A stretch of DNA of 32,399 nucleotides, from NCBI RefSeq assembly GCF_000422425.1, contig NZ_AULT01000058.1, positions 1 through 32,399 of the forward strand. The letters run 5' to 3'. Positions 2,008 to 18,457 of this stretch are shown here, in pieces. Both the position numbers and the translations under genes were made by a program. Under the pieces are notes generated by a model. The model did not search any database and was not told where the DNA came from. It worked only from the letters and a program-made list of their open reading frames with translations. Source of the DNA: Oceanospirillum beijerinckii DSM 7166 (GTDB taxonomy: Bacteria; Pseudomonadota; Gammaproteobacteria; Pseudomonadales; Halomonadaceae). Numbering within the stretch: the stretch's first letter is position 1; each line of letters starts with the position of its first letter.

Positions 2008-2081
2008 TACCTCTGCCAGGTGATTGATCGAGATAGATCTGACTTATTTAGATTAGAGCTACCTCGATCCACTTAGCGACC

Positions 2082-2127
2082 AAACCCACAAAGCATCCTG
2101 TTTCAATCGCATCCGCTTTGTGGGTTT
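2082..2127 (+). terminator. Long hairpin between urtA and urtB (partial terminator or mRNA stabiliser)
   Basis: aaacccacaaagc (2082-2094) pairs perfectly with gctttgtgggttt (2115-2127), a 13-bp stem with a 20-nt loop. No strong U-run follows, only tct and then ggcggtttt. A leaky terminator or 3'-end protector after the binding-protein gene is common in ABC operons and fits here. Confidence 0.6.
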
Positions 2128-2200
2128 TCTGGCGGTTTTATCTCCCTTATTTCTTTCGATTAGCCGCTTTTTACGCGATAAAGCGCAATGGAGTACTGTT

Positions 2201-3874
2201 GTGAAACGCTATCTCGCCCTCTGCTGTTGTGTGTTGGGGTTGCTGCTCAACCCTGCTTTGAATCCTGCTTTTGCTGAGGCGGATCAGCCTCATTCTGTTA
2301 CTTCGACTGAGCCTTCGCCTGAAGCAGTAGTTGGCCGTTCTCCCAAAGTTCAAATGCTATTAATCGAGCTGACAGAGAAAAGTCTGAATAAGGCGGTGCC
2401 TGTTCTGGAAAAATTGGAGCAATCCGGTGGTGAAGCCATGCTGCCGCTGTTCCGTACCATGCTGGGCGGCAACCTCTATTTTATTAAAGCCAGTCGTCAG
2501 GTGGTTGCTCTGGTGGAAACCGCATCCGGTGATGCCTTTGCTGATGTCTTTACTGGTCAGGCTTTGCCCGACGTGGCTAAGAAGCAAACTAAAAAGATCC
2601 GGGTGAATAACCGTCTGCGTGGTTATCTGCGTGATGCCATCGCTCGAATCCAGTTGTCGTCGTCTGATCCTTTTGCCCGCGAAAAAGCGGTACGTAATCT
2701 GCTGTCCGAGCTGGATCAGCCCACTATTGAGGCGATTCAAAGCGCGCGGGTAAATGAGCCAAACACTGCCGTGCAGGAGATGATGGATCTGGCGCTGGCG
2801 ATGCACAAGCTGACCAATGCCGCTTTAGCAGTGGATCAGCTGGAGGCCATTGAAGCCCTGTCCGGTAGTTTAGAAAGTGAAGTGCGTAATCTGCTGGCGC
2901 GGGTATCAGAGAGCGAAAACTACGAACCAGCCGTAAATAAAGCTGCGGCCAGTGCGCTGGTGAAAATTCAGGATAAGGTGGAGTTTTACGCCTTTATCGA
3001 TCAGCTGTTTTTTGGCCTGAGCCTGGGTTCTGTACTGCTACTGGCGGCCATTGGCTTGGCTATCACCTTTGGCGTTATGGGTGTGATCAATATGGCCCAT
3101 GGCGAGATGATTATGCTCGGTGCTTACACCACTTATGTGGTGCAGTTGATGTTGCCCAATCATATCGAGTATTCCCTGTGGCTGGCGATTCCACTGGCGT
3201 TTATTGTCTCCGGTCTGATGGGGGTATTGATTGAGCGTGGTGTGATTCGTTTCTTACACGGTCGACCGCTGGAAACCCTGTTAGCCACCTTTGGTATCAG
3301 CCTGATTTTACAACAGCTGGTCCGCACCATTTTCTCACCGTTAAACCGTCAGGTGGCGTCTCCTGAATGGATGAGTGGCTCCATTGAGATCAACCCTGTG
3401 TTGTCGCTGACCCTGAACCGTCTATACATTCTGGCTTTTGCCCTGCTGGTGTTTTTCCTGCTGCAACTGATTCTGAAGAAAACCTCGCTGGGTCTGAATG
3501 TGCGTGCGGTCTCACAAAATCGAAATATGGCGCGCGCTATGGGCGTACGCTCGGATTGGGTGGATGCCATGACCTTTGGCCTGGGTTCCGGTATTGCCGG
3601 TATCGCGGGTGTAGCTTTGAGCCAGCTGACCAATGTGGGTCCTAATCTGGGCCAGGCCTATATTATCGATTCCTTTATGGTGGTGGTGTTTGGTGGTGTC
3701 GGTAACTTGCTAGGCACGCTGGTCGCCGCATTCTCGTTGGGTATCGCCAATAAGTTTCTGGAGCCTGTCACCGGTGCCGTACTGGCCAGTATTCTGGTTC
3801 TGGTGTTTATCATCCTGTTTATTCAGAAACGCCCTAAAGGTCTGTTTCCTCAGAAAGGGAGGGCTGCGGAATGA
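2201..3874 (+). CDS. urtB: Urea ABC transporter permease UrtB with periplasmic N-terminal domain
   Basis: One of two membrane subunits of the urea channel. I take GTG at 2201 as the start: GGAG lies 7 nt upstream and the product then begins MKRYLALCCCVLGLLL, a signal peptide ending near AFA|EA. A longer in-frame reading from 2120 would overlap the hairpin and has no ribosome site. The 557-aa protein has an N-terminal helical soluble region of about 240 residues, usual for proteobacterial UrtB, then a LivH-type permease. The permease begins around FGLSLGSVLLLAAIGLAITFGVMGVINMAHGEMIMLGAY and contains the conserved VFGGVGNLLGTL region. Its last 4 nt overlap urtC (ATGA), implying translational coupling. 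Confidence 0.95.
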   Translation: MKRYLALCCCVLGLLLNPALNPAFAEADQPHSVTSTEPSPEAVVGRSPKVQMLLIELTEKSLNKAVPVLEKLEQSGGEAMLPLFRTMLGGNLYFIKASRQVVALVETASGDAFADVFTGQALPDVAKKQTKKIRVNNRLRGYLRDAIARIQLSSSDPFAREKAVRNLLSELDQPTIEAIQSARVNEPNTAVQEMMDLALAMHKLTNAALAVDQLEAIEALSGSLESEVRNLLARVSESENYEPAVNKAAASALVKIQDKVEFYAFIDQLFFGLSLGSVLLLAAIGLAITFGVMGVINMAHGEMIMLGAYTTYVVQLMLPNHIEYSLWLAIPLAFIVSGLMGVLIERGVIRFLHGRPLETLLATFGISLILQQLVRTIFSPLNRQVASPEWMSGSIEINPVLSLTLNRLYILAFALLVFFLLQLILKKTSLGLNVRAVSQNRNMARAMGVRSDWVDAMTFGLGSGIAGIAGVALSQLTNVGPNLGQAYIIDSFMVVVFGGVGNLLGTLVAAFSLGIANKFLEPVTGAVLASILVLVFIILFIQKRPKGLFPQKGRAAE

Positions 3875-5115
3875 GTCAGTCTTTGTCTTCTATCGCTCGC
3901 TTCTCTGCCAGTGATCTATTTAAAGGGAAAGGCCAGCCCGGTGGTCGAGTCGCACCCTTTGTGGTGATCCTGTTGGCGGTGACGGTGCTAGCCTCAGCAG
4001 CCAATCTGCTGCTACCAGAAAGCTCGCCGTTTTATGTCAGTACCTACACTATCACGCTATTAGGTAAGTATCTGAGTTATGCCATGCTGGCGTTAGCGGT
4101 GGATGTGATCTGGGGTTACTGCGGCATTCTGAGCCTGGGCCACGGGGCATTTTTTGCTCTGGGTGGCTATGCGATGGGCGTGTACCTAATGCGCCAGATT
4201 GGTGACCGTGGTGTTTATGGTCACCCGGAACTGCCGGACTTTATGGTGTTTCTGGATTGGAGTGAACTGCCCTGGTACTGGCTGGGTATGGACCAGTTCT
4301 GGTTTGCCATGCTGATGGTGCTGGCAGTACCGGGCTTGCTGGCTTACATCTTTGGCTGGCTGGCGTTCCGTTCCCGTGTCACCGGTGTTTATCTCTCTAT
4401 TATGACGCAGGCGCTGACTTATGCGCTGTTGCTGGCCTTCTTCCGCAACGAGATGGGTTTTGGCGGCAACAACGGTTTGACCGACTTTAAAGATATTCTC
4501 GGTTTTGACCTGCAGTCGGATACTACCCGTGTGGCTCTGTTTGCCATTACCGCATTGATGCTGGCACTGACCTTTATCACCAGCCATTGGATTATGCAGT
4601 CCCGCCTCGGCAAGGTTGTAGTTGCCATCCGTGATGGTGAAGCACGGGCCCGTTTTCTGGGTTATCGCACCGATAACTTTAAGGTTTGGCTGTTTGTTTA
4701 CTCTGCCATGATTGCGGCCATTGCTGGCGCGTTATATGTGCCACAGGTGGGCATTATCAACCCCGGTGAATTCTCTCCGATTAACTCCATTGAGATTGTG
4801 ATCTGGGTGGCTGTGGGTGGTCGCGGCACTTTGATCGGTGCCATCGTCGGTGCCCTGCTGGTCAACTACGCCAAAACCCGTTTTACCGCCATTATGCCGG
4901 ACGGCTGGTTATTTGCGCTGGGTGCCTTGTTTGTGCTGGTGACCTTGTTCCTGCCAAAAGGTCTGGTGGGTGTATTCAGCCAATTAACAGAGCGCTGGTT
5001 CCTGATGAGAAATCGTTCGCAGGTTAAAAACAGTTCTGCTGAAGAGTCCGATAAGCCGCTGAGCACTGGGGCACAAGCCAGTGCAGGAGTGCAAACTAAG
5101 GAGGCCAGCGTATGA
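3871..5115 (+). CDS. urtC: Urea ABC transporter permease UrtC
   Basis: Second membrane subunit, LivM-like, 414 aa. It overlaps the end of urtB by 4 nt. Hydrophobic segments run from about residue 30. Diagnostic stretches are VDVIWGYCGILSLGHGAFFALGGYAMG, the EAA-like loop VVVAIRDGEARARFLGYRT that contacts the ATPases, and VGGRGTLIGAIVGALLV near the end. The last ~35 residues are a hydrophilic Ser/Glu/Lys tail. Its stop overlaps the urtD start in another ATGA. It works with UrtB, UrtD and UrtE in the inner membrane. Confidence 0.95.
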   Translation: MSQSLSSIARFSASDLFKGKGQPGGRVAPFVVILLAVTVLASAANLLLPESSPFYVSTYTITLLGKYLSYAMLALAVDVIWGYCGILSLGHGAFFALGGYAMGVYLMRQIGDRGVYGHPELPDFMVFLDWSELPWYWLGMDQFWFAMLMVLAVPGLLAYIFGWLAFRSRVTGVYLSIMTQALTYALLLAFFRNEMGFGGNNGLTDFKDILGFDLQSDTTRVALFAITALMLALTFITSHWIMQSRLGKVVVAIRDGEARARFLGYRTDNFKVWLFVYSAMIAAIAGALYVPQVGIINPGEFSPINSIEIVIWVAVGGRGTLIGAIVGALLVNYAKTRFTAIMPDGWLFALGALFVLVTLFLPKGLVGVFSQLTERWFLMRNRSQVKNSSAEESDKPLSTGAQASAGVQTKEASV

Positions 5116-5957
5116 GCGCATTAGAAAACCTGACCGCTGAAGGTAAAGAGATGTTACGTCGGGATCAAGTCTGGCCGTTTTTGATGCCAAAGCAGCAGGC
5201 AGTGGATGTTTCCCATCAGGTGATTCTGTATGTGGAAGGCCTGAATCTGAGCTTTGATGGCTTTAAAGCACTGAATGACCTGAACCTTTATATCAATGAT
5301 GGCGAACTGCGCTGTCTGATCGGAGCCAATGGCGCGGGTAAAACCACGTTGATGGATGTGATTACCGGTAAAACCCAGTGTGACTCCGGCACGGTTTATT
5401 TTGGTCAGAACCATAATCTGCTGGAACGATCTGAGCCGGAAATTGCGGAATTGGGCATCGGCCGTAAGTTCCAGAAGCCGACCGTCTTTGAAGCCCATAC
5501 GGTATTCGACAATCTGGAGCTGTCCCTTAAAACCAATAAAGGCGTGATGCCGACACTGCTGGCCCGATTAACACCCACGCAGCTGGATCGAATTGATCAG
5601 GTGCTGGAGATTATCGGCCTGAAAGAGCAGCGTTTTCTGCTGGCAGGCGCTCTGTCTCACGGCCAGAAACAGTGGCTGGAGATCGGCATGTTGCTGGTCT
5701 CCGAACCGCGTTTACTGCTGATTGATGAACCCGTAGCCGGTATGACCGCTCAGGAAACGGAACGTACCGCTGAGCTGCTGACCTCTCTGGCCGGTGAGCA
5801 CACGGTGATTGTCGTGGAACATGATATGGAGTTTGTGCGCAGTATCGCCCGTACGGTGACGGTGCTGCATCAGGGTTCGGTGCTGGCCGAAGGCACGATG
5901 GATCAGGTGCAGAACAATAAGGATGTGATCGAAGTTTATCTGGGGGAAGAGGCATGA
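5112..5957 (+). CDS. urtD: Urea ABC transporter ATPase UrtD
   Basis: LivG-like ATP-binding subunit, 281 aa. Walker A is GANGAGKTT (residues 71-79), the ABC signature LSHGQ (181-185) and Walker B LLLIDE (201-206), followed by the switch His in VVEHDMEFV. The ~40 residues before the ABC core are a hydrophilic extension. LSHGQKQWLEIGMLL is the form typical of UrtD. The gene overlaps urtC and urtE by 4 nt each. Together with UrtE it powers urea import. Confidence 0.95.
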   Translation: MSALENLTAEGKEMLRRDQVWPFLMPKQQAVDVSHQVILYVEGLNLSFDGFKALNDLNLYINDGELRCLIGANGAGKTTLMDVITGKTQCDSGTVYFGQNHNLLERSEPEIAELGIGRKFQKPTVFEAHTVFDNLELSLKTNKGVMPTLLARLTPTQLDRIDQVLEIIGLKEQRFLLAGALSHGQKQWLEIGMLLVSEPRLLLIDEPVAGMTAQETERTAELLTSLAGEHTVIVVEHDMEFVRSIARTVTVLHQGSVLAEGTMDQVQNNKDVIEVYLGEEA

Positions 5958-6661
5958 TCTCGATTAATAACGTCAACCAGCTCTACGGCGGTACTCAGAT
6001 TCTGTGGGATCTGAACCTGGAGATCGAAGCCGGTTCCTGCACCTGCATTATGGGTCGTAACGGTGTGGGTAAGACCACGTTGCTGAAGTGCCTGATGGGG
6101 CTGTTACCGATCTCTGATGGCGAAATTCTGCTGGATGGTGAGCCACTGCACAGTCGGAGTGCGGAGTTCCGAGCACCAGCGGGTATCGGTTATGTGCCTC
6201 AGGGACGGGATATTTTTCCTATGCTCACCGTAGAAGAAAACCTGCGTATCGGCCTGCCGGTGCGTAAAAGCCGAACCGGTGACAGTACCGGTGAGATCCC
6301 GGAAAAAATCTTCGAGTTATTTCCGGTATTAAAAGAGATGCTGCACCGTCGTGGCGGTGATCTATCCGGTGGGCAGCAACAGCAGCTGGCCATTGGCCGG
6401 GCGCTGGTACTGGAACCCAGAGTGCTGATTCTCGATGAACCCAACGAAGGCATCCAGCCCAATATCGTAAAACAGATCGGTGATGTGATTCTGAAACTGA
6501 ATGAAGAGGAAGGTCTGACGGTGATTCTGGTGGAGCAGAAGCTGGGCTTTGCTCGTCGGGTGGGCAAAGAGTTTCGCCTGATGGAAAAAGGCCGGGTGGT
6601 GGCCAGTGACAAGATGGCTAATCTGAATGATGAACTGATCAGACAGTATCTGGCGGTATAA
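5954..6661 (+). CDS. urtE: Urea ABC transporter ATPase UrtE
   Basis: LivF-like ATP-binding subunit, 235 aa. Walker A is GRNGVGKTT (residues 34-42), the signature LSGGQ (137-141) and Walker B VLILDEP (157-163). DEPNEGIQPNIV is the UrtE-typical form of the loop after Walker B. It is the last gene of the five-gene coupled block. About 250 nt separate it from ureD, and that gap carries its own promoter elements, so urt and ure are probably separate transcription units. Confidence 0.95.
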   Translation: MISINNVNQLYGGTQILWDLNLEIEAGSCTCIMGRNGVGKTTLLKCLMGLLPISDGEILLDGEPLHSRSAEFRAPAGIGYVPQGRDIFPMLTVEENLRIGLPVRKSRTGDSTGEIPEKIFELFPVLKEMLHRRGGDLSGGQQQQLAIGRALVLEPRVLILDEPNEGIQPNIVKQIGDVILKLNEEEGLTVILVEQKLGFARRVGKEFRLMEKGRVVASDKMANLNDELIRQYLAV

Positions 6662-6877: not shown

Positions 6878-6893
6878 AGGTGCATGGTTTGCA
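6878..6893 (+). promoter_or_regulatory. Sigma-54 (RpoN) promoter for ure operon
   Basis: AGGTGCATGGTTTGCA has the GG-N10-GC spacing (GG 6879-6880, GC 6891-6892) and a perfect TTGCA -12 element; the -24 box matches in GG and the final C. Transcription would start near 6903, which rules out the in-frame GTG at 6880 as the ureD start and leaves a very short leader. Confidence 0.7.
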
Positions 6894-6909
6894 GGACATC
6901 CTTATTACC

Positions 6910-7836
6910 ATGAATCGGATGACAGTGTTACCTACCGAACAGGCTTCCCATTGGGAGGCCCGACTGGCACTCAAGCTGGCCCGTACTCTGCGCGGATCAG
7001 TATTAAAAGGTTGTGAGCATAAAGGTCCGCTTTATGTACAGAAGCCCTTTTACCCGGAGGGGCGGGATCTGGCGCACCTTTATCTGCTGCATCCACCGGG
7101 CGGGATGGTTTCGGGCGATACCCTGACCATCTCTGCTGATGTGGATGAACAAGCTTCAGCTCTGATTACCACACCGGGTGCTGGCCGGGTTTATAAGGCC
7201 CGTGCTGATAAAAGCCTGCAGCATCAGATACTGCGCTTTGATCTGGCGGATGATGCCTCCCTCGAATGGCTGCCGCTGGAAGGCATCATCTACCCTGGAG
7301 CTCAGACACAGCTGGATACTCAGGTGCATCTTACCGGCAACGCCCGCTATATCGGCTGGGAAATCACCAGTCTCGGCCTGCCCGCCTGCCACCAACCCTT
7401 CTCTCCCGGCAGCCTGATGAAGCAAAACCTGCAGATTTTCCGCGACGGTAAACTTTGTCTGCGCGAACGGTTAGTGGTGGATGGCGATCAACAGGAAAAC
7501 GGCATGCTGCAGAGCCTTGCGGGGCTGAGAGGCTATCCGATTACCGCCATGATGGTGGCCGGGCCGTTCGATGCGCCCTCTTTTAATGCTGGGATAAACG
7601 ATGATGAAACCGCACTGGAAAACCTGATCTGCAGGTTGCGGGATTGCTGCGAGCAACACAAATCTCTCGATGAGGACTTTCTCGCGGGTGTCACCCTGAA
7701 TCACGGCTTTGTGATGGTGCGCTATCTGGGGTACTGCTCGGAAAAGGCCCGCAAACTCTTTATCGAATGCTGGAAGCAGGTTCGCCCTGAGCTACTCAAC
7801 CGGGATGCCTGTGAGCCGCGTATCTGGGCCACTTGA
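6910..7836 (+). CDS. ureD: Urease accessory protein UreD
   Basis: UreD binds apo-urease and, with UreF and UreG, guides nickel into the active site. The family match is clear: HKGPLYVQKPFYPEG followed by LYLLHPPGGMVSGDTL, TTPGAGRVYKA, and LEWLPLEGIIYPGA. The start is uncertain. ATG 6910 and ATG 6919 are both in frame and downstream of the predicted sigma-54 start point; neither has a good ribosome site. From 6910 the product is 308 aa, a normal size. It is the first gene of the ure operon, followed by a 108-nt gap with short repeats and then ureA. Confidence 0.93.
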   Translation: MNRMTVLPTEQASHWEARLALKLARTLRGSVLKGCEHKGPLYVQKPFYPEGRDLAHLYLLHPPGGMVSGDTLTISADVDEQASALITTPGAGRVYKARADKSLQHQILRFDLADDASLEWLPLEGIIYPGAQTQLDTQVHLTGNARYIGWEITSLGLPACHQPFSPGSLMKQNLQIFRDGKLCLRERLVVDGDQQENGMLQSLAGLRGYPITAMMVAGPFDAPSFNAGINDDETALENLICRLRDCCEQHKSLDEDFLAGVTLNHGFVMVRYLGYCSEKARKLFIECWKQVRPELLNRDACEPRIWAT

Positions 7837-7841
7837 ATAGT

Positions 7842-7892
7842 CTGAATAAAAAGCATCTGAATTCAAAACGACTGAATTAAAAGCACCTGAAT
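7842..7892. repeat. Direct repeat in ureD-ureA spacer
   Basis: A 21-bp unit, ctgaataaaaagcatctgaat (7842-7862), recurs at 7872-7892 with two mismatches, a 30-bp period. The unit itself begins and ends with ctgaat. It is one of several short tandem duplications in this window and has no evident function. Confidence 0.6.
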
Positions 7893-7944
7893 CGCCAAAG
7901 TAAAAAATGACCTGCCCGGCAGGATCAAATAGCAAGAGGTCACT

Positions 7945-8247
7945 ATGGAACTACTGCCAAGAGAGAAAGATAAGCTGCTGATCTTTACTGCAGCCCTGCT
8001 GGCGGAACGACGCCTGAACCGTGGACTGAAACTGAATTACCCGGAGGCGGTTGCCTTTATCACCATGGAGATCATAGAGGGTGCCCGTGACGGTAAAACC
8101 GTTGCTGAACTGATGAGCTACGGCAAAACCCTGCTCAATGCGGATCAGGTGATGGAGGGCGTACCGGAACTGATCCATGAGGTTCAGGTAGAAGCCACCT
8201 TCCCCGACGGCACCAAGCTTGTCACCGTTCACCAGCCTATCTGCTAA
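7945..8247 (+). CDS. ureA: Urease subunit gamma UreA
   Basis: Smallest structural subunit of urease, 100 aa and full length. It starts [23 protein letters not shown] and contains [10 protein letters not shown] and the ending VTVHQPI, all diagnostic. AAGAGG precedes the start. It is 12 nt upstream of the fused beta-alpha gene, with which it forms the (UreABC)3 trimer in the cytoplasm that hydrolyses urea to ammonia and carbamate. Confidence 0.97.
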
Positions 8248-8259
8248 GGAGAGATCACC

Positions 8260-10359
8260 ATGACTGATAAGGATTCACAAACCTCTGACCTCTTTATTCC
8301 CGGCGAAGTAAAAGCCGCAGCAGGGCAGATTACGCTTAACGAAGGCCGCAAGGTGATCGTCCTTCGTGTCGAAAACACCGGCGACCGTCCGATTCAGGTA
8401 GGCTCCCATTATCACTTTGCGGAAACCAATCCGGCACTGAGTTTTGACCGAGAAGCCGCCAAAGGCTTCCACCTGAATATCGCCTCCGGCACTGCGGTTC
8501 GTTTCGAGCCCGGTCAGGGTCGTGAAGTTCAACTGGTGGAATTTGCCGGAAGCAAAACCATTTATGGTTTCCGCGGTGAAGTGATGGGCCCGCTTGAAGA
8601 CGCAGGCAGCTCGGACACCAGCGCTGAAACATCCTCGGTGACGATGGACCGCACCGCCTATGCTCAGATGTTTGGCCCAACAGTCGGTGACAAGGTCAGA
8701 CTTGGCGATACTGATCTCTGGATTCAGGTCGAGAAAGATTTCACCGTTTATGGCGATGAAGTGAAATTCGGTGGCGGCAAGGTGATCCGTGATGGCATGG
8801 GTCAGAGTCAGCAGGTAAATGAACCCACCGATGGCAGCGAAGGCGCTATGGATCTGGTAATCACCAATGCCGTTATTCTGGATCACTGGGGTATCGTCAA
8901 AGGAGATGTCGGTATCAAGGCCGGTCGTATCGTCCGTGTCGGTAAAGCCGGTAACCCGGATGTTCAGGCCAATGTGGATATCATCGTTGGTCCGGGCACC
9001 GAAGTGATCGCCGGGGAAGGCTCGATTCTGACCGCTGGCGGCATCGACGCCCATATTCACTTTATCTGCCCGCAGCAGATCGAAGAGGCCCTGATGAGCG
9101 GTGTCACCACCATGATCGGCGGCGGCACGGGACCTGCCACCGGCACCAATGCGACCACCTGTACACCGGGCCCCTGGTATATCGGCAAAATGCTGCAAAG
9201 TACCGATGATATGCCGATGAATCTGGGTTTCCTCGGTAAAGGCAATGCTTCTCAGCCAGAAGCGCTGGAAGAACAATTGGAAGCCGGTGTCTGCGGCCTG
9301 AAACTGCATGAAGACTGGGGCACAACACCGGCTTCTATCGACTGCTGCCTGAGCGTGGCGGAAAAGTATGATGTACAGGTGGCGATTCATACTGACACCC
9401 TGAATGAATCCGGTTTTGTCGATGACACGATTGGCGCGTTCAAAGGCCGTGTTATCCACACCTATCACACCGAAGGGGCTGGCGGTGGTCACGCGCCGGA
9501 TATTATCCGCGCCTGTGCTTACCCCAATGTGCTGCCCTCTTCCACCAACCCGACCCGCCCTTACACGGTCAATACGGTGGATGAACACCTCGATATGCTG
9601 ATGGTCTGCCATCACCTCGACAGCTCGATTCCAGAAGACGTGGCTTTTGCTGATTCCCGTATCCGCAAGGAAACCATCGCCGCCGAGGATATTTTCCACG
9701 ATCGCGGGGCTTTCTCCATGATCTCCTCCGATTCCCAGGCGATGGGCCGTGTCGGTGAAGTGGTTACCCGTACCTGGCAGACGGCTCACAAGATGAAAAC
9801 TCAGTTTGGCCTGCTGCCGGAAGATCAGGATGTGGGCTGCGATAACTTCCGTGCCCGCCGTTATGTGGCCAAGTACACCATCAATCCGGCGATTACTCAC
9901 GGTGTCTCTCACGAAGTCGGCTCTATTGAACCGGGCAAGCTGGCGGATCTGGTGCTGTGGAAACCCGCTTTCTTTGCGACTAAGCCTTCGATGATTATCA
10001 AGGGCGGTATGATCGCCGCGGCCCCTATGGGTGATCCGAATGCCTCTATCCCGACGCCACAGCCGGTGCATTACCGCCCTATGTTCGGTGCTCATGGCAA
10101 AGCGGCCAGCCAAACCTCCGTCACCTTTGTTTCCAAAGCGGCGCTGGATAACGGCATCCGGGAAAAACTGGGCCTTAACCGTGAACTGGTAGCCTGCGCT
10201 AATACCCGCAACATCAGCAAAAACGATATGGTGCTGAACAACTGGCAGCCGGATATCACCGTTGACCCGCAAACCTATGAGGTACGCGCTGACGGTGAAC
10301 TGCTGACCTGTGAGCCTGCGACTGAACTGCCGCTGGCACAACGTTTTAATCTGTTCTGA
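8260..10359 (+). CDS. ureBC: Fused urease beta-alpha subunit (UreB-UreC)
   Basis: A single 699-aa product. Residues ~10-110 are UreB ([27 protein letters not shown], ...AVRFEPGQ). A Ser/Thr-rich linker of about 16 residues (112-128) leads into UreC at [12 protein letters not shown] (129 on). All catalytic residues are present at a constant offset of 131 from Klebsiella UreC: nickel ligands H265, H267, H377, H403 and D491, the carbamylated K348, and H350, C450 and H451. The frame is continuous and there is no ribosome site before the internal Met 129, so this is a true fusion and not a sequencing join. GGAGAG precedes the start. Separate ureB and ureC are the usual bacterial form; Helicobacter instead fuses gamma and beta. 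Confidence 0.95.
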
Positions 10360-10428
10360 TGGTGGGTTTTAAATACTCTATTACAGCAGATAAGCCAGCT
10401 ATTAAGGACAGTGAATAGGAAAACCAAG

Positions 10429-11016
10429 ATGCTTGAAATTTACGAACGCCTGGGCACCGAAAAAGCAGGCCCTATTTACGCTACAGTGACTCTGAATCAT
10501 GAGCAGAGGGATCGCGGCCGGCTGCGCCTGACCAGTGCCGATGGTGAAGAGGTGCGCGTATTTCTGGAGCGCGGCACCGCCCTTCAGGTAGGTGAATATC
10601 TGAGATCCCACTGCGGAAAGATCGTCAAGGTAGAAGGAGCCATCGAGCCCGTGACCGAAGCCCGTTGCGATGACTGGCACACCTTTGCCCGCGCCTGTTA
10701 TCACCTGGGCAACCGGCATGTGAAGTTGCAGGTCGGTGAACGCTGGCTGCGCATCACACCGGATCATGTGCTGGAGGAGATGCTGGAGCTGTTGGAGCTG
10801 ACCATAGTGCATACCGAAGCCGTGTTCGTGCCGGAAAACGGCGCTTATTTTAAAGGCCTCGGCGGTCATTCTCACGGTCATGATCATGGACATTCCCATG
10901 GCCATGATCATGAGCATGAGCACAGTCACGATTACAGTCTCGATCATTCGCATAGCCATGGTCACTCCCACAGCCATGATCATTCCCATGAGCCGGGACA
11001 TCACCATGAACACTGA
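10429..11016 (+). CDS. ureE: Urease nickel metallochaperone UreE with His-rich tail
   Basis: UreE carries nickel to the UreDFG-urease complex. ATG 10429 follows AGGA and gives MLEIYERLG, the usual beginning; GTG 10411 in frame is possible. Of 195 aa, the first ~145 form the UreE core (RGRLRLTSADGEEVRVFLERGTALQ, then CYHLGNRHVKLQV). The last ~50 residues are a GHSHGHDH-type tail with about 23 His, able to bind several nickel ions. The gene's end overlaps the ureF start by about 11 nt. Confidence 0.93.
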   Translation: MLEIYERLGTEKAGPIYATVTLNHEQRDRGRLRLTSADGEEVRVFLERGTALQVGEYLRSHCGKIVKVEGAIEPVTEARCDDWHTFARACYHLGNRHVKLQVGERWLRITPDHVLEEMLELLELTIVHTEAVFVPENGAYFKGLGGHSHGHDHGHSHGHDHEHEHSHDYSLDHSHSHGHSHSHDHSHEPGHHHEH

Positions 11017-11735
11017 GCCGGATAGCGCTTCTGTATCAGCAGCGCCAGCGATGACCGATCTGAGTCTGGTGCGCCTGATGCATCTGGCTTCCGTCAGTCT
11101 TCCGGTGGGGGGGCTATGCCTTCTCTCACGGCATGGAGTACGCCATAGACGCAGGCTGGATTCGCAAAGCGGATCAGGTGGAACATTGGGTTCGGGAACA
11201 GCTGCATCTGGGGCTTTCGGGCACGGATATTCCTTTGCTCAGGCTGTCGATGGAGGCCTGCGTTCAGGAAGACTGGCCCGAGTCAAAGCGTATTAAAGAG
11301 TTAAAGCGCATCAATGAGCTGACACTGGCCTGCCGGGAAACCCATGAACTGACCCTGACGGATACCGCTATGGGTGAAGCTCTGATGCGGCTGATGAACA
11401 GCCTGCAGATGGCTCAGCCCTTCAGCAAAAGTGAACCTGTGAGCTTTGTCTGCTTGTTCGCTTTGGCAGCATCTCTCTGGCAGATCCCCTATCGGGCAGC
11501 AGCCAGCGGCTTTCTCTGGTCCTGGCTGGAAAACCAGATCGCGGCTGCCACCAAGCTGGTGCCATTGGGGCAGACACAGGCACAACAGCTGCTGGTTGCT
11601 CTGCAACCGGAGCTGGCCGCCGTCATCGAACAGGCTGAAAAGATTTCTGAAGAGGAGATTGGTGCAGGCTTGCCTGCTTTAGCCATCGCCAGCTCTCAAC
11701 ATGAACATATGTATTCCCGACTCTTTCGTTCCTGA
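11006..11735 (+). pseudogene. ureF: Urease accessory protein UreF, split by a single-base frameshift
   Basis: UreF acts with UreD and UreG in nickel insertion. The N-terminal part reads from ATG 11006 (MNTEPDSASVS..., then SLVRLMHLASVSLPVGG). The rest, YAFSHGMEYAIDAGWIRKAD to SRLFRS, lies in the next frame and ends at 11735. The shift falls exactly in a run of seven G at 11107-11113; with six G the frame is continuous and gives a normal 242-aa UreF with the conserved PVGGYAFSHGMEYA motif. As written, the first frame runs into a stop at 11296. Possible causes are a homopolymer sequencing error, a real inactivating or phase-variable slip, or ribosomal/polymerase slippage. All neighbours are intact, which favours error or slippage over decay. 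Confidence 0.88.
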
Positions 11736-11845
11736 TCCTTGCTATAGAACTCTGTGGGATAACTGCAGATAAAGCAGCCGGTGGCTACAGCCGGGAGGCA
11801 TCAGAACGACACAGAACCGGATAAAAATTAAAACGAGGAGATCTT

Positions 11846-12493
11846 ATGACCAAACCAAAACAAACATTACGCGTCGGTGTGGGTGGCCCGGTAGGCTCAG
11901 GTAAAACAGCGCTGCTGCGTTCATTGTGCGCGGCCCTGCGTGATCACTACGATATTGCCGTAGTCACCAACGATATCTATACCAAAGAAGACGCAAAATT
12001 CCTCACCGAACATGAAGCACTCAGTGCTGACCGTATTATCGGTGTCGAAACCGGAGGTTGTCCTCATACCGCCATCCGGGAAGATGCTTCCATGAACCTT
12101 GCGGCTATCGACCAGCTGGTTGAACGCCACGGCGCACTGGATGTGGTGTTTGTGGAAAGTGGCGGCGACAACCTGAGCGCCACCTTTAGCCCGGAACTGT
12201 CAGACCTGACCATCTATGTGATCGACGTATCAGCCGGTGACAAGATTCCCCGTAAAGGTGGCCCCGGTATCACCAAATCCGACCTGCTGATTATCAACAA
12301 AACCGATCTGGCTCCGATTGTGGGTGCGTCCCTTGAGGTGATGGATCGTGATGCTAAACTGATGCGCGGTGAACGGCCTTTTATCTTTTCCAATCTGAAA
12401 GTGGCGCAGGGGCTGGATGATATTATTCAGTTTATCGTCACCGAAGGTATGTTGGAGCAGAAAACCTTGCCTGCCGCAGAAGCGGTGGTTTGA
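11846..12493 (+). CDS. ureG: Urease accessory GTPase UreG
   Basis: SIMIBI-class GTPase that delivers nickel and couples GTP hydrolysis to urease activation. It is 215 aa and full length. P-loop GGPVGSGKT is at residues 13-21, the nickel-binding Cys-Pro-His at 72-74 ([11 protein letters not shown]), ESGGDNL around 104-110 and the guanine-specificity NKTD at 151-154. GAGGAG precedes the start. A 110-nt gap separates it from ureF, and AT-rich DNA (12494-12558) separates it from the permease gene. Confidence 0.97.
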
Positions 12494-12558
12494 ATAATAA
12501 AATATATTTTTAACTATTTGATTTAAATATAGAATTTGTATTTTTATAGGATATTGGC

Positions 12559-13125
12559 ATGAAAAAGATTTTAGCAACACTGGCCTTTTTGGCACCTGCA
12601 ACGGCTATGGCGCATAGTGGACATGAAGTATCGGGCTTTCTGGCCGGTTTAAGTCACCCTGTTGGCGGTCTGGATCACCTGTTAGCGATGGTTGCCGTTG
12701 GCTTATGGGCAGCCCGTATGGGCGGTAAAGCACAGTGGACTGTGCCTGCTGCGTTTGTGGTGACTATGCTGCTGGGTGGCGTTTTGGCAGTATCCGGTGT
12801 GGCGGTGCCTTTTGTTGAAGGTGGTATCGTCCTGTCCGTAATTGCGATGGGTGTCCTGTTGGCCTTTGCCGTTAAATTCCATCCAGCAGTCTGTGCTGCT
12901 TTGGTGGCGGGTTTTGCCCTGTTCCACGGTGCGGCTCACGGTACAGAAATGCCGCTGGAAGCCAGTGGTCTGGCATACGGTGTGGGCTTTGCTCTGGCTA
13001 CAGCTGCTCTACATAGTGTGGGTATCGTTCTGGCAAAAGCCAGCATTCAGATTAAAGCCGAGCTGGCGACACGTATTGCTGGTGGTGCGATTGCGGTGAC
13101 CGGTTTAGCGATGGTGGCGGCATAA
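12559..13125 (+). CDS. ureJ: HupE/UreJ-family nickel permease
   Basis: A 188-aa inner-membrane protein with a signal-like start (MKKILATLAFLAPATAMAHSG) and the family signature HPVGGLDHLLAMVAVGLWAA around residues 32-52. A second His-rich stretch, FHGAAHGTEMP, follows; these His are thought to bind nickel. The family imports nickel or cobalt for hydrogenase (HupE) or urease (UreJ). The position after ureG supports nickel for urease. AGGA in tataggatattggc is the ribosome site. A hairpin with a U-run lies about 80 nt after the stop. Confidence 0.9.
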   Translation: MKKILATLAFLAPATAMAHSGHEVSGFLAGLSHPVGGLDHLLAMVAVGLWAARMGGKAQWTVPAAFVVTMLLGGVLAVSGVAVPFVEGGIVLSVIAMGVLLAFAVKFHPAVCAALVAGFALFHGAAHGTEMPLEASGLAYGVGFALATAALHSVGIVLAKASIQIKAELATRIAGGAIAVTGLAMVAA

Positions 13126-13363: not shown

Positions 13364-14407
13364 CTACTCGACCGCTAATAAACGTAATGCAATTCCTGCC
13401 GCTGCGGTTCGGTTTTCGACGCCCAGCTTCGGAAAAATCTGCTCCAGATGCTTGTTAACGGTTCTGGGGCTCATGGTCAGGATTTCAGCCGCTTCCCGGT
13501 TCGTTTTGCCATTCGCGATCCAGTACAACACTTCAGATTCCCGTTCTGTCAGGTTCAGTTTTTCTTTCAGCATGGTCGAGCCTGTGGCGCGTTGGCCATC
13601 AATCAGTTTAAGTAATTTCTCGCCATTTTCCTGATGGCTGATCAGTTTAATCTCCAGTGGATAGTTTTTGGGGCTATCTGGCAGTGGGTTGTCCGTAGTA
13701 ATACTAGGCTTTGTATTTGAACCTGAAGGGAGCGGTGGCCCGACGAGCTTGAGTTGCTGGTTCAGATCAGGCCTATGGGTCAACCATTGTGCAATTTGTG
13801 GTGCCAGCTGTGTGCTCTGCCAGTGTTCATCCGCACCAGATCGCGCCAGCAGAGCATAGGTTTGCGGTGTGGCCCATCGAATATGGCCTGTATCGTTGAC
13901 TGTCATCAGATGCTGACCGGTACTGTCCAGTGCGGACTGGGCGCTATTGGTTAATCTGGCATTGGTCAGATGAACCTTCATTCGGGCTAATAGCTCATTG
14001 GGATTAATCGGTTTAGTCAGATAATCCACACCACCGGCTTCCAGGCCGCGCACGATATCATCGGTTTCGGTCAACCCGGTCATAAATATCACGGGGATAG
14101 CGGCCAGTTCCGGGTCGGCTTTTAGCTGCTGGCAGGTTTCAAAGCCATCCATATTGGGCATGATGGCATCCAATAGAATCATATCCGGCCTGACTTTACG
14201 GGCGATGGTCAGAGCCTGCCGCCCCTCCAGGGCGACAAGTACATTAATGCCTGCACTTTCCAGGGTGTCATTAATCAGGCTTAGTGTATCCGGGGAATCA
14301 TCTACCACCAGCACCATATCGCATAACGGCGTTTGACTGGACTGAGCCTGAGAAATACTTCTGGTGTTGAGGGTTGACTGCGTAGCCGTCAGGTCCGGTA
14401 TGGTCAT
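13364..14407 (-). CDS. LuxR/NarL-type response regulator, partner of the adjacent kinase
   Basis: A 347-aa DNA-binding response regulator. The receiver spans residues ~30-145, with acidic pocket VDD (35-37), phospho-acceptor D80 in MILLDAIMPNMDGF and K132 in YLTKPI. Residues ~160-275 are a PAS-like or unassigned middle region (NDTGHIRWATPQTYALLARS), which plain NarL-type regulators lack. A LuxR helix-turn-helix lies at ~284-345 (LTERESEVLYWIANGKTNREAA, then SPRTVNKHLEQIFPKLGVENR). Its start overlaps the kinase stop by 4 nt, so the two are a translationally coupled pair. Target genes are not shown by the sequence; the 7-2-7 repeat before urtA and the neighbouring ure genes suggest urea or nitrogen-compound uptake. 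Confidence 0.9.
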   Translation of the reverse strand: MTIPDLTATQSTLNTRSISQAQSSQTPLCDMVLVVDDSPDTLSLINDTLESAGINVLVALEGRQALTIARKVRPDMILLDAIMPNMDGFETCQQLKADPELAAIPVIFMTGLTETDDIVRGLEAGGVDYLTKPINPNELLARMKVHLTNARLTNSAQSALDSTGQHLMTVNDTGHIRWATPQTYALLARSGADEHWQSTQLAPQIAQWLTHRPDLNQQLKLVGPPLPSGSNTKPSITTDNPLPDSPKNYPLEIKLISHQENGEKLLKLIDGQRATGSTMLKEKLNLTERESEVLYWIANGKTNREAAEILTMSPRTVNKHLEQIFPKLGVENRTAAAGIALRLLAVE

Positions 14408-17400
14408 AGTGATGACTCCTTCCGTTCAGAATGCTTGGCGATATAGTCGGCAATGGCGGCTAACTGGAAGCCATTCACCATCTGCTGTAGAGCGTCGAGG
14501 TGTTTAGCGGGTACAACAGCGCCTGAAGCCTGAGAGTGTTGCGGGTGTTGAGGGTGTTGAGATTGAGGATAAGCAGACGGCTCTTGCCATAAAGGGGATT
14601 CTTCCCATAAATGGCGTTCTTCCCAGAGCTGCTCCAGAACCTGTCGCACCCCCTTGGCAAACCCGGTATCTGCGTAGGCAATCAGCTCGGCGATGAGAGG
14701 ATGATCTGGAATAAACTCAGGGGCTGATTCAGGGGGCGGTTCAGGAACTGGTTCAGAATTTGATCGAGGGATCGATTCAGAGACACGCTTTGAAACTGGT
14801 TCCAGAATAGGCTCTGACACCGGTTTAGCCGCTGGTGCTGAGATCGATTGCTCATCTGTTTTCCGCCAGCTCCATTGCAGATTCAGTTGCTCGGCCAGTT
14901 TATCCAGTAACTTATGATTGGCGATCGGTTTAACCAGATAATCGTTATACGCGGCTTGATCTTCTGCCGCCCGATAGTGTTCCTGGGCATCGGCAGACAG
15001 CATCACAATCGGTTCTCTGACCTCGCGTTCTCTAAGCTTGTGAGCCAGCTCCAGGCCATTAATACCCGGCATAGAGACATCTAACAAGAAAAGATCCGGC
15101 GAGCGCTGACCATCCAATTGATCCAGCAACTTAAGACAGCTTTCGCCATCATGAGCTTCCAGGGTAATAAAGCCCAGTGGCGTGAGCAGATCCGATAACA
15201 GCCCTCGCAGGATAGGGTCATCATCGACCAGACACAAGGTTCTCTGATAGCCCTCATAGCCGACAAGGGTTTTCTGCTCGGTCACTTCAGTATTGTCCTG
15301 ATCACCCTGACTGACCCAGGGCAGCATAAGTACCACGGTAAACTCACTGCCTTGATTAACCCGGCTGTTAACCTGCAGATCACCGCCCATAATTTCCGTC
15401 AGCAGACGCACAATGGTTAAGCCCAGACCTGTACCGCTCTGACTGGCGGTATCACGATTTCTGACCCGCTCAAACGGATCAAAAATCCGCTGCAGGTAAT
15501 CATCATCAATGCCAGGGCCAGTATCTTTAATGGTAAACTCAGCCACCTGATTGCGGTAACGTACGGAGAACTCAACCTCGCCCTGAACGGTATACTTCAC
15601 CGCATTGGACAACAGGTTAATCAGTATCTGACGCAGGCGTTTTTCATCGGTCATCACAAACTGAGGCAGTGGGCTGTGGATCTGGCAGTTGAACTGAATC
15701 CCTTTCTGACCGGCCTGCATGGCAAACATGCTACTGAGCTGATCCAGTAACTGAGGCAGATCTACCTGAGTGCGGTACAGATCCAGTCGGCCCGCTTCAA
15801 TACGGGAAATATCCAGTAAGCCTTCGATCAGATCGGTCAGATATTGCCCGCTACGCTGGATAATATCTAAACCATTCTTATGCCCTTGTGGCGTATCCGG
15901 TTTATCGTTCAGCAGCTGAGCATAGCCCAGAATAGACTGTAGCGGCGTTCTCAGTTCATGGCTGATACCGGTCAGATATCGACTTTTTGCTGCATTGGCC
16001 CGTTCTGCCAGCTCTTTGGCTTGCTGTAATGCCAGATCGGTTTCTTGGTGGGCTTCAATCTCATTGATCAGCTTTCGGGTCTGACGATTGGATTCTTTCT
16101 GTGCCACCACCCGACTTTCGTGGGCGAGCAGAAACAGCCAGGAGACGACACCGGATGCGATCAGCAAAGTAAAAAACAGGCTCCAGATCACTTGTTCCAG
16201 CAGTAAGGTTTCTGCGGCCGTTTCTGGCTGCATCTGCCGGTAGACTACCGCTAATAAAGCCGCATTCAACAGATTAACCAGTAACAGCAGACCACCAAAA
16301 CGGGCCAGACGGGAATTGACTCTATGGCTCCAGCGCTGAGGCAGGAATAAAGAGAAAAACTGTATCGCCTGACGGGATACTCGACCTTCCGGTTTGCAGC
16401 TGTCCATACAGCGCACATCCAGTGAGCAGCACAGGGAGCAGATCGGCAGGTCGTAAGCCGGGCAGAAACTCATATCTTCCGCTTCAAAGGCATTCTCACA
16501 GATGCCGCACTTCAACACCGTATGAGCGCCGACAGCGTGGGGGTGTGGTGCCGGTTTAAAGGCCGACAATGTGTTTTCCCGTTCTGCCTCGATTAAAGGC
16601 AGTAGCTCCGGGGACTGACGGGCGATATAAAATCGTCCTTGAGTGAGCCAGGCGATTAAAGGCACAGAGATAAAGCATACGGCGAGGCTAAGGAAGTGAC
16701 TGAGGTTTTTACTGACCTCACCAAATACGCCGAGATAACTCAGTACGCCTAGTCCGGTGGCCAGCAGCATAGAGCCTGTGCCTACCGGGTTGATGTCGTA
16801 CAGATGGGCCCGTTTAAACTCCACATAATCGGGACTTAACCCCAGAGGTTTATTGATCATCAGATCAGCCGCCAATGAACCGAGCCAGCTGACCGCTACA
16901 ATGGCAAAGATTCCCAGAATCGCTTCCAGTGCCTGATAAATACCCAGCTCCATCAGTAATAACGCGATGGTGACATTAAATACCAGCCAGACCACACGTC
17001 CGGGGTGAGAGTGAGTCAGACGAGAGAAGAAATTTGACCAGGCAATGGAGCCCGCATAGGCATTGGTGACGTTGATCTTCATCTGAGACAGAATCACCAT
17101 CAGTGCGGCTAATAGCAGCGCAATACCCGGTGACTGGGTCAGATAATAAAACACCCGTTGGTACATCTGGGTCGGGTCGGTGGCCAGCTCAAAGCTCATG
17201 CCCTGAGAGATCGCCAGATAGGCCAGAAAAGAACCCAGCAGCATCTTAATGACGCCTGGAATCACCCAGCCTGGCCCGGCCAGAATCAGCCAGAACCACC
17301 AGCGTTTCTTATTCTGCTCGGTTTTCTCCGGCATAAATCTCAGGTAATCCACCTGCTCACCAATCTGGGCAACCAGGGCAAAAAATACCGATGCGGCGGC

Positions 17401-18072
17401 TCCAAACAGCAGAATATTAAACTCGCCGGAATCCGGCAGATGCTGAGGCGTGAATTGTGTCCAGTCGCCCAGCTTGTCGGACTCATACACGATCACGACA
17501 AACAGTGCGGCCAGTTGCAATACCAGCCAGATATTCTGTGTGCCCACCTGAAAGCGACTGATGGTGGCGATGCCATGGGTCACAATGGGAATCACCGCTA
17601 CCGCACAGAGGAAATACCCCAGTGCCAGCGGAATCCCCAGTAAAGCATTTAAAGCAGAGGCCAGAATCACAGCCTCAATAGCAAAAAAGATAAAGGTAAA
17701 GGAGGCATAAATCAGTGAGGTAATGGTTGATCCCAGATAGCCAAAACCCGCACCACGGGTGAGCAGGTCAATATCTAAACCGTGGCGGGCCGAGTAATAA
17801 CTGATAGGTAGACCTGTGATAAAAAACAGCAGGCAAACTGTCAGCATCGCCCAAAGCGTGTTGGTAAAACCGTAGTTCAGTGTTACTGCAGCAGCGATGC
17901 CCTCTAAGGCGAGAAATGCCGTCGCACCCAGCGCGGTTTTAGCCACTCGCTCAATGCTCATATGACGGGCAGAGTGTGCGGTAAAGCGCAGGGCAAAGTC
18001 TTCTAAGGTCTGATCCGCAACCCACTTATTGTAATAGCGGCGAACCCTGAAAATCCGCTGTGATGCAGGCAT
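14404..18072 (-). CDS. Permease-fused hybrid sensor histidine kinase (NCS1-like transporter + Cys-rich module + HK + REC)
   Basis: A 1222-aa membrane protein. Residues ~40-480 contain about 12 hydrophobic segments resembling an NCS1 purine/cytosine/allantoin-type symporter (TRGAGFGYLGSTITSLIY, MKINVTNAYAGSIAWSNFF). A Cys-rich module follows at 522-559 (CGIC...C...CSLCC...C...C), probably metal-binding. Two more membrane helices lie at ~592-612 and 627-650. HisKA has H705 in SHELRTP; HATPase has N823, DTGPG 850-854 and GTGLGL 880-885. The receiver spans ~944-1062 with D998 and K1048. A Ser-Glu-Pro-rich linker (1085-1118) and a helical tail end the protein. SLC5 transporter-kinase fusions such as CbrA and CrbS/MxtR are known; here the transporter part looks different. 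It may sense its transported ligand, and urea-cluster context suggests a nitrogen compound. The ligand is not known. Confidence 0.9.
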   Translation of the reverse strand: MPASQRIFRVRRYYNKWVADQTLEDFALRFTAHSARHMSIERVAKTALGATAFLALEGIAAAVTLNYGFTNTLWAMLTVCLLFFITGLPISYYSARHGLDIDLLTRGAGFGYLGSTITSLIYASFTFIFFAIEAVILASALNALLGIPLALGYFLCAVAVIPIVTHGIATISRFQVGTQNIWLVLQLAALFVVIVYESDKLGDWTQFTPQHLPDSGEFNILLFGAAASVFFALVAQIGEQVDYLRFMPEKTEQNKKRWWFWLILAGPGWVIPGVIKMLLGSFLAYLAISQGMSFELATDPTQMYQRVFYYLTQSPGIALLLAALMVILSQMKINVTNAYAGSIAWSNFFSRLTHSHPGRVVWLVFNVTIALLLMELGIYQALEAILGIFAIVAVSWLGSLAADLMINKPLGLSPDYVEFKRAHLYDINPVGTGSMLLATGLGVLSYLGVFGEVSKNLSHFLSLAVCFISVPLIAWLTQGRFYIARQSPELLPLIEAERENTLSAFKPAPHPHAVGAHTVLKCGICENAFEAEDMSFCPAYDLPICSLCCSLDVRCMDSCKPEGRVSRQAIQFFSLFLPQRWSHRVNSRLARFGGLLLLVNLLNAALLAVVYRQMQPETAAETLLLEQVIWSLFFTLLIASGVVSWLFLLAHESRVVAQKESNRQTRKLINEIEAHQETDLALQQAKELAERANAAKSRYLTGISHELRTPLQSILGYAQLLNDKPDTPQGHKNGLDIIQRSGQYLTDLIEGLLDISRIEAGRLDLYRTQVDLPQLLDQLSSMFAMQAGQKGIQFNCQIHSPLPQFVMTDEKRLRQILINLLSNAVKYTVQGEVEFSVRYRNQVAEFTIKDTGPGIDDDYLQRIFDPFERVRNRDTASQSGTGLGLTIVRLLTEIMGGDLQVNSRVNQGSEFTVVLMLPWVSQGDQDNTEVTEQKTLVGYEGYQRTLCLVDDDPILRGLLSDLLTPLGFITLEAHDGESCLKLLDQLDGQRSPDLFLLDVSMPGINGLELAHKLREREVREPIVMLSADAQEHYRAAEDQAAYNDYLVKPIANHKLLDKLAEQLNLQWSWRKTDEQSISAPAAKPVSEPILEPVSKRVSESIPRSNSEPVPEPPPESAPEFIPDHPLIAELIAYADTGFAKGVRQVLEQLWEERHLWEESPLWQEPSAYPQSQHPQHPQHSQASGAVVPAKHLDALQQMVNGFQLAAIADYIAKHSERKESSL

Positions 18073-18457
18073 AAGCAGCCACTTCTCTAAATTAAAGGTT
18101 CAAGAAAGATATTCTTCAAAAGATAAAAAGCTCAAAAGCATCGTGACTTACCGCCCTGTTTTAGGGCGCTCGAACAGCAGGCAGCCGTTAACATGCACTC
18201 TGTTGGCGCATGATTGAGACAGTTCCTGAGCTTTTGGGCTTATAGTGTGTGTTTAGCAAGAGAAGTTGCAGGCTTTGTGCCAGTTGGCAGTATAAGAAAG
18301 GTAGTATTTCGGAAGATTAAGTGCTTACAGGTGAATGTACGTGGTAAATGGCGCAGTGTTATAGGCAAAGAAATGCGTAAGGTAATATAGGCGCTAAATA
18401 AATGACAATTAATAGGGCTCTGGAGCTCCAAAGCCCTATTTTTAAGCCTTTGAAAAC
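18073..18457. other. Kinase upstream region, no gene seen
   Basis: This 385-bp spacer holds no convincing coding region. It contains the kinase gene's leader with a small hairpin (cgccct 18152-18157, agggcg 18163-18168) and, at the bcp side, a terminator. No second copy of the TACGTCA 7-2-7 repeat is visible, so there is no sign of autoregulation through that motif. Confidence 0.4.
18411..18440 (-). terminator. Terminator hairpin after bcp
   Basis: aatagggct (18411-18419) pairs with agccctatt (18432-18440), and the loop is itself the palindrome tggagctcca. It lies 18 nt past the bcp stop. The T-run is better on the plus strand (atttttaa) than on the minus strand, so it may act in both directions. 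Confidence 0.65.

Follow-up and report, generated by a model that had tools for sequence, protein, structure and literature searches.

A hybrid histidine kinase with an NCS1-like permease beside the urea genes of Oceanospirillum beijerinckii: a candidate sensor for urea and short amides

The locus and its permease kinase

The window, i.e., the whole analysed stretch of 32,399 nucleotides from Oceanospirillum beijerinckii DSM 7166, contains the genes of a urea transporter and a urease and, next to them, the gene pair that is the subject of this report. The pair encodes a hybrid histidine kinase that begins with a permease and a response regulator of the LuxR type. Their reading frames overlap by 4 nt on the minus strand and are convergent with urtABCDE (637-6661) and ureD-A-(BC fused)-E-F-G-J on the plus strand (Table 1). 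The permease kinase is probably a missed sensor that reports urea or a similar nitrogen food. A first-pass annotation of the sequence had already described the two open reading frames (ORFs), a hybrid kinase and a coupled receiver-LuxR regulator, and their orientation towards the ure cluster; ORFs, Pfam domains and strands agree with it.

The AlphaFold2 model of kinase residues 1-690 has a predicted local distance difference test score (pLDDT) of 82.3 and a predicted template modelling score (pTM) of 0.81. Counted by eye, it comprises 12 membrane helices, then a small strand-bearing stretch over a group of cysteines, and then two long helices. This is the order that had been proposed from the letters: a 12-helix permease followed by two extra helices.

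To judge from profiles and the model, the permease is a distant branch of the NCS1 family and not a member of SLC5. This assignment is based on a profile match, on structure ranks and on a stand-alone relative, L137. A family alignment including L137 was compared by hhalign with 13 PF02133 proteins (99.0%, E 6.6e-18, 415 columns); with the sensors alone the match to NCS1 is weaker, yet kept (98.5%, E 2e-15, 347 columns). In Foldseek, CodB and Mhp1 occupy ranks 1-5 (E 1.1e-9 to 1.7e-7). L137, which is 41-42% identical, passes PF02133 with 31.8 bits, the cut-off being 23.5 bits. SLC5 membership was rejected, the hhalign comparison with 10 SLC5 proteins reaching only 0.9% (E 0.059) and, with sensors alone, 0.3% (E 0.18). 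The best SLC5-type structure is DUR3 at Foldseek rank 7 (E 4.0e-6), which we take to be of the SLC5/SSS kind. What had been called NCS1-like by eye is thus borne out by both methods, though PF02133 itself is not reached: it is matched by 0 of 45 family members at E 0.1.

No other convincing Pfam family was found for the permease region, and none above the cut-off for the cysteines and the two helices. A STAC domain is not among the Pfam and NCBIfam matches shown, the presence of a STAC model in these libraries being unverified. A sequence search of the PDB with the permease region yielded just six weak matches, all designed "Cake" proteins, and the alignment profile yielded zero.

Putative pocket positions were obtained by two chained alignments, from the window to the homologous locus L001 and from L001 to Mhp1. 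F129, E133, K332, N334 and N337 thereby align with W117, Q121, S312, N314 and N318 of Mhp1, the last across a one-column gap. We take S312 to be part of the sodium site of Mhp1, and W117, Q121 and N318 to line its pocket. Position 129 is F in 107 sensors and L in 7, while E57, E133, Q236, E239, K332, N334 and N337 are conserved in 114/114. A lysine at the sodium-site position would fit a sodium-independent or proton-linked cycle. A search for specificity positions that separate fmd-linked from urea-linked sensors (see below) was given up; the candidates were scattered, mainly in variable stretches, and none coincided with an aligned pocket position.

The cysteines after the last permease helix obey the pattern CxxC-x11-C-x7-CxxCC-x5-C-x3-C. 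The 8-Cys module that the first-pass annotation had seen in the single sequence proved to be real: the eight cysteines are invariant across a 45-row alignment, and a looser pattern recurs in 154 of 155 homologous frames, being incomplete only in the stand-alone L137, a protein that stops about halfway through it. That the module binds a metal is a guess.

In the regulator, Pfam recognises a receiver (32-143), in which D80 is located, and a GerE/LuxR domain (285-338). Both domains recur in 37/37 regulator homologues. The middle part is less easily named. No PAS family matched the window regulator, nor was there one among the 25 families shown, of 43 in all, for the 37 homologues. Judged by eye, residues 167-270 of the regulator model (pLDDT 87.5) resemble a PAS domain in the succession of strands and helices. 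The 50 rows shown of a fold search are receivers or whole response regulators, and none identifies the middle domain.

Table 1. Features of the window.
Feature	Position	Strand	Basis or remark
Permease-fused hybrid histidine kinase, 1222 amino acids	14404..18072	-	ORF, domains, homologues
NCS1-like permease domain, residues ~40-480	16633..17955	-	AlphaFold2 model, Foldseek, hhalign
8-Cys module, residues 522-559	16396..16509	-	alignment and frame scan
Two further long helices, residues ~588-645	16138..16311	-	AlphaFold2 model
HisKA, residues 695-761, phospho-acceptor H705	15790..15990	-	Pfam
HATPase, residues 808-916	15325..15651	-	Pfam
Kinase receiver, residues 947-1059, D998	14896..15234	-	Pfam
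Response regulator, 347 amino acids: receiver (D80), middle part, LuxR/GerE	13364..14407	-	ORF, domains
Palindrome CTACGTCAAATGACGTAC, predicted regulator binding site	567..584	.	136 bases before ATG 721, 52 before ATG 637
urtA	637..2007	+	TIGR03407
urtB, urtC, urtD, urtE	2120..6661	+	family matches
ureD, ureA, fused ureB-ureC, ureE, ureF, ureG, hupE/ureJ	6880..13125	+	family matches
Sigma-54-like promoter TGGCACAAAGCCTGCA upstream of kinase gene, lead only	18267..18282	-	similar sites before kinase in relatives

Distribution and gene neighbourhoods of the sensor family

The input region of the kinase is widespread. It was found in 8 of 58 genomes of relatives at E 0.001 (6 of them strong matches), in 18 of 369 genomes of a class sample and in 53 of 398 genomes of a sample of the phylum Pseudomonadota, i.e., in about one in eight; the own genome is counted in each case. 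A pattern scan of genome contigs confirmed at least 546 relatives, the best 80 of which form the named set. Several of the sampled genomes are mutually related, so that p-values calculated for co-occurrence with the kinase overstate independence. The input region also occurs on 524 plasmid records, 342 of them from Klebsiella. In 52 listed plasmid rows the product is called "ATP-binding protein", "response regulator", "ArcB", "hypothetical protein" or the like, or has no name, so that the role of the plasmid-borne input region is invisible in their annotations. On plasmid pKP062-1 of K. pneumoniae (L387, 48903-68756) the kinase lies beside urtABCDE and a formamidase gene, with the clpK/hsp20 heat-resistance genes nearby.

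In the survey of neighbourhoods, a locus was counted as flanked if at least 5 kb were available on either side. Among the 58 loci read from the phylum sample, 53 of 54 flanked ones lie near formamidase/amide (fmd) or urea (urt/ure) genes (36 fmd, 16 urea, 1 both), the sole negative being a distant stand-alone permease (L226). Of the named 80, 64 are flanked and 60 of these are positive (51 fmd, 9 urea); in the class sample it is 7 of 11, the negatives being L126, L130, L134 and L135. L130 has a related cluster under the identity threshold and a strong copy of the DNA box described below. Short flanks led to the omission of 16/80 named, 8/19 class and 4/58 phylum loci, one of the latter four without a permease hit. 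With the same thresholds, fmd or urt/ure genes were found in 0/40 control windows from kinase-bearing genomes. The identity thresholds had been chosen when the neighbourhoods were already known and were then applied unchanged to the controls, which were two windows each from 20 genomes, placed by hand at round-number positions on large contigs and not at random. A lack of linkage between homologues and urt/ure or other nitrogen genes had been named beforehand as one half of what would speak against a urea-related role; as far as sequence can tell, the 53/54 linked loci versus 0/40 controls do not bear it out.

Co-occurrence points in the same direction. In the class sample, UrtA is present in 14/18 kinase genomes versus 73/351 kinase-less ones. 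Within the genus of the window, 2 of 6 genomes have both the kinase and the urease alpha subunit and the other 4 have neither; FmdA is found in 0/6, the own genome included. In this genome, urea would be the local target. The first-pass annotation had thought of a permease of the nucleobase/allantoin/urea type: urea would hold for the window; the commonest partner of the family is a cluster for formamide and short-chain amides, not for nucleobases or allantoin.

The kind of cluster follows the phylogeny of the sensor. On a sensor tree with 92 labelled rows, thinned by joining rows at least 88% identical with the same label, the label fmd or urea switches only 4 times; shuffled labels gave a mean of 23.5 and a minimum of 19 switches (n = 200). 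Six genomes of the phylum sample hold two matches. In G560, G626, G647 and G777, one is fmd-linked and the other urea-linked; in G498 both are fmd-linked, and in G595 the second match is a distant stand-alone permease.

In L045 the fmd cluster was recognised from an FmdA match (E 1.4e-187) together with a zinc ribbon protein resembling FmdB. The ABC genes of fmd clusters bear urt names in annotation. A paper of 2010 describes a five-gene ABC cluster of Bradyrhizobium japonicum beside PF03069 and aliphatic amidase genes and argues for an amide substrate distinct from urea (PMC3098086). In L121 (8190-9410; G305:C1:1530204-1531283), a protein that resembles UrtA but is encoded in an fmd cluster scores above the cut-off of the urea model TIGR03407, and amide-type ABC transporters are thus annotated as urea transporters. 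Several urea clusters have a porin gene before urtA (L007 at 1972-3147, with a PF07396 match; L030, L066, L120, L124, L188, L390); this porin is perhaps comparable to FmdC.

The input module is not confined to one output. In L134 (7349-11020) it is fused to PAS-GGDEF-EAL, possibly yielding a cyclic di-GMP enzyme controlled by urea or amides. In L135 it precedes two PAS domains, HisKA, HATPase and a receiver, in L132 another kinase. L137 (9089-10711) is an NCS1 permease that stands alone, has half of the Cys pattern and is encoded between ureG and a nickel transporter gene; it is a candidate urea permease; another stand-alone version (L133) lies beside fmdA and amiE. The varied fusions and the stand-alone versions support urea and small amides as the presumable class of ligands and the idea of a portable sensor module.

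A palindromic box upstream of urtA

A DNA box was learned from 61 intergenic regions between a kinase gene and a divergent transporter gene (60 fmd-linked, 1 urea-linked; the window was excluded). It reads ATACGTCA-NN-TGACGTAT; its paired tetramers, for instance, occur in 38/61 regions versus 0.4 in shuffles. Within 3 mismatches the window contains a single match, at 567-584, where 0.03 are expected (3 of 100 shuffles had one). With a profile built from 38 fmd sites this place scores 25.8, against 8.6 for the runner-up within the window and 15.2 for the best of 100 simulated windows. The site precedes urtA, whose true start, by comparison with the protein of the congener G002, is probably ATG 721 rather than 637.

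Genome-wide, the exact core, TACGTCA-NN-TGACGTA, occurs only once in the own genome of 5.3 Mb, namely at 567-584. G002 has one exact core, 135 bases before urtA, with the kinase on another contig; four kinase-less congeners have none. G795, G796 and G797 each carry a single exact core, which precedes urtA, although their kinases have no urt gene closer than 10 kb. In G798 a single exact core precedes porin-urtA, and a place with 1 mismatch lies elsewhere. G799 lacks the exact core and has two places with 1 mismatch, of which one precedes urtA and the other lies elsewhere. In all seven genomes the best site is the one at urtA, tied with the other 1-mismatch place in G799. Matches with 2 mismatches are background in the genus: 10 places in the own genome versus 20 for the reversed pattern. 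A stretch of pSymB of Sinorhizobium meliloti, which had not contributed to the profile, has a single strong site, 96 bases before the annotated start of urtA.

Within 760 bases around the start of urtA, a site with up to 3 mismatches is present in 12/21 urea-linked loci versus 0/39 kinase-less genomes (39 of 40 regions were scored; one of 132 bases was left out). Except for L196, which is one of the 61 and has no site, none of these loci has a 40-base word in common with the training regions. If whole loci are counted, including sites before porin or kinase genes and exact half-sites (TACG-N8-CGTA), the number rises to 17/21; the like-for-like count upstream of urtA is the 12/21 versus 0/39. 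Exact half-sites upstream of urtA are found in 0/40 regions of kinase-less genomes, and 2 in 792 kb of control windows. The box at 567-584 is the predicted target of the LuxR regulator. Neighbourhoods and palindrome, the latter in the window and in relatives, together lend support to the first-pass idea of a kinase system for urea or nitrogen compounds tied to urt/ure, with urea as its presumable ligand.

In a promoter scan for sigma-54 with 2 mismatches, the window has 20 sites where 21.75 are expected, which is chance level. Before kinase genes, sigma-54-like sites occur in 21/110 regions versus 8/110 on the opposite strand and 0.7 in plain letter shuffles, a modest excess over the opposite strand; in eight near relatives they have 1 mismatch. 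It is because of this cross-species comparison alone that the promoter before the window kinase counts as a lead. A sigma-70 scan before urtA gave one match, on the opposite strand and near chance.

Proposed mechanism, rival explanations and known systems

Most likely, the kinase is an NCS1-type transceptor for urea, elsewhere for short amides, which turns on urt-ure via its LuxR regulator. A shortage of nitrogen may raise the kinase level through the sigma-54-like promoter, for which the evidence is modest. The ligand, which would be urea here and formamide, acetamide or urea in most other genomes, would bind in the NCS1-like pocket and perhaps be transported. The 8-Cys module, followed by the last two membrane helices, would hand the signal on to HisKA and HATPase, and H705 would donate its phosphate to D998, to D80 of the regulator or to both. 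The phosphorylated regulator would bind the palindrome and presumably activate, rather than repress, urtABCDE and the downstream urease genes on the same strand, which we assume to form a single transcript.

The wider generalization has, in our opinion, about even chances. According to it, the NCS1-like permease, the 8-Cys module and the two helices form a portable, probably sodium-independent module for carbonyl-amide nitrogen (urea, formamide, acetamide), which is plugged into hybrid kinases, other kinases and a c-di-GMP GGDEF-EAL enzyme and alone works as a urea or amide permease. It would be the missing inducer sensor for fmd and urt-ure in much of Pseudomonadota, acting via the palindrome.

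The permease might instead sense a common signal that is not a substrate, e.g., ammonium, pH or membrane energy, and serve as a general nitrogen-scarcity switch for genes of amide nitrogen. We consider this improbable. Sensors linked to fmd and to urea genes do not differ in their putative pocket residues, and the pocket so far explains no choice of ligand, a point that also counts against a urea transceptor; the sigma-54-like promoter before the kinase, too, hints at nitrogen control. Yet the cluster type tracks the sensor tree, and the split into one fmd- and one urea-linked copy in 4 of the 6 two-copy genomes would be needless for a common signal. The places of the stand-alone relatives, one within a urease/nickel operon and one next to fmdA and amiE, likewise suggest a permease related to the substrate. 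These relatives, which persist in urea and amide clusters, and the polar residues E57, E133, Q236, E239, K332, N334 and N337, kept in every sensor, make it hardly credible that we are dealing with an ordinary hybrid kinase whose decayed permease is a mere membrane anchor, for which there is nothing direct in favour.

Another explanation has the palindrome read by a different regulator of urt or fmd, while the kinase-regulator pair merely travels with the clusters and controls something else. It is decidedly unlikely. In its favour, DNA binding by the regulator is so far a prediction, and the box is missing in some places; these gaps also count against the proposed route via the LuxR regulator. 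The kinase gene of the window itself has no box in front of it. Some urt promoters of kinase genomes have none either: the urea-linked L080, L188 and L196 are without a convincing box (L030 is cut off at a contig end), and in the class sample just 5/16 urtA-type upstream regions of kinase genomes have exact half-sites. Three of these 5 overlap training loci; without the 4 overlapping regions, 2/12 versus 0/40 remain. Some of the regions without half-sites belong to second clusters or follow a porin gene; others are unexplained. L126 and L127 have kinase and regulator, no cluster in the sequence covered, and no box; L131, likewise with kinase and regulator and no cluster seen, has one exact pair of half-sites, with a low profile score and not at a promoter. 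Against a foreign regulator, however, stands the absence of the box before urtA in all 40 regions of kinase-less genomes. The box is also lacking in the five loci with another output or without a LuxR partner found (L132, L134, L135, L223, L224), and it precedes urtA also in genomes that encode the kinase on a different contig or at a distance of over 10 kb.

The mechanism proposed for the transceptor matches what is reported for Methylophilus methylotrophus. The fmdCABDEF genes of this organism are induced by formamide and urea and repressed by much ammonia (PMC10781810). They form the same kind of cluster, for which the review names just a putative positive regulator (PMC10781810).

Histidine kinases fused to a secondary-transporter-like domain that control the use of a nutrient are known as the SLC5-STAC transceptor kinases, namely RpuS/RpuR, CbrA/CbrB and CrbS/CrbR (the latter two: PMC13022988, PMC9100948); CrbS, like the window protein, is termed a hybrid kinase (PMC5715377). 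The window kinase differs from them by its NCS1-like transporter, by the 8-Cys module and two helices that follow and by its neighbours, which are genes for urea and amide nitrogen. Since the SLC5 domain was tested and found unmatched, it is not a member of the CbrA/CrbS family. Ammonium sensor kinases of the Ks-Amt5 type offer a further comparison. Such a kinase shares the fusion of a transporter with a histidine kinase for nitrogen sensing (PMC5764959), but has an Amt fold and senses ammonium, in contrast to the NCS1/LeuT fold and the presumable ligands urea or amides of the window kinase. Mhp1 and CodB share the fold and an end-to-end profile match with the window permease. Unlike them, the latter is beyond the reach of PF02133, is fused to a kinase and, by the chained alignment, has Lys at Mhp1 S312 and Glu at Q121. 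An earlier description of an NCS1-type kinase system was not found in openly licensed PMC papers.

In about one-eighth of the sampled Pseudomonadota genomes, the system is a candidate inducer sensor for the utilization of urea and formamide by bacteria, and it comes with a well-defined DNA box. With NCS1 next to SLC5, the transceptor kinases would comprise two transporter families of LeuT fold, between which the coupling of permease and kinase can be compared.

Two peculiarities of the urea genes themselves may be added. The fusion of ureB and ureC at 8260-10359 is a single ORF of 699 amino acids (beta 12-114, alpha 127-699); G002 likewise has an open frame of 699 amino acids at ureBC, and the urea-linked L029 and L031 have two genes. 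UrtB of the window (2120-3874) has an N-terminal extension of about 290 amino acids, which it shares with UrtB of other urea-type clusters; fmd-type clusters encode a UrtB-like protein, often of 308 amino acids, that lacks this extension.

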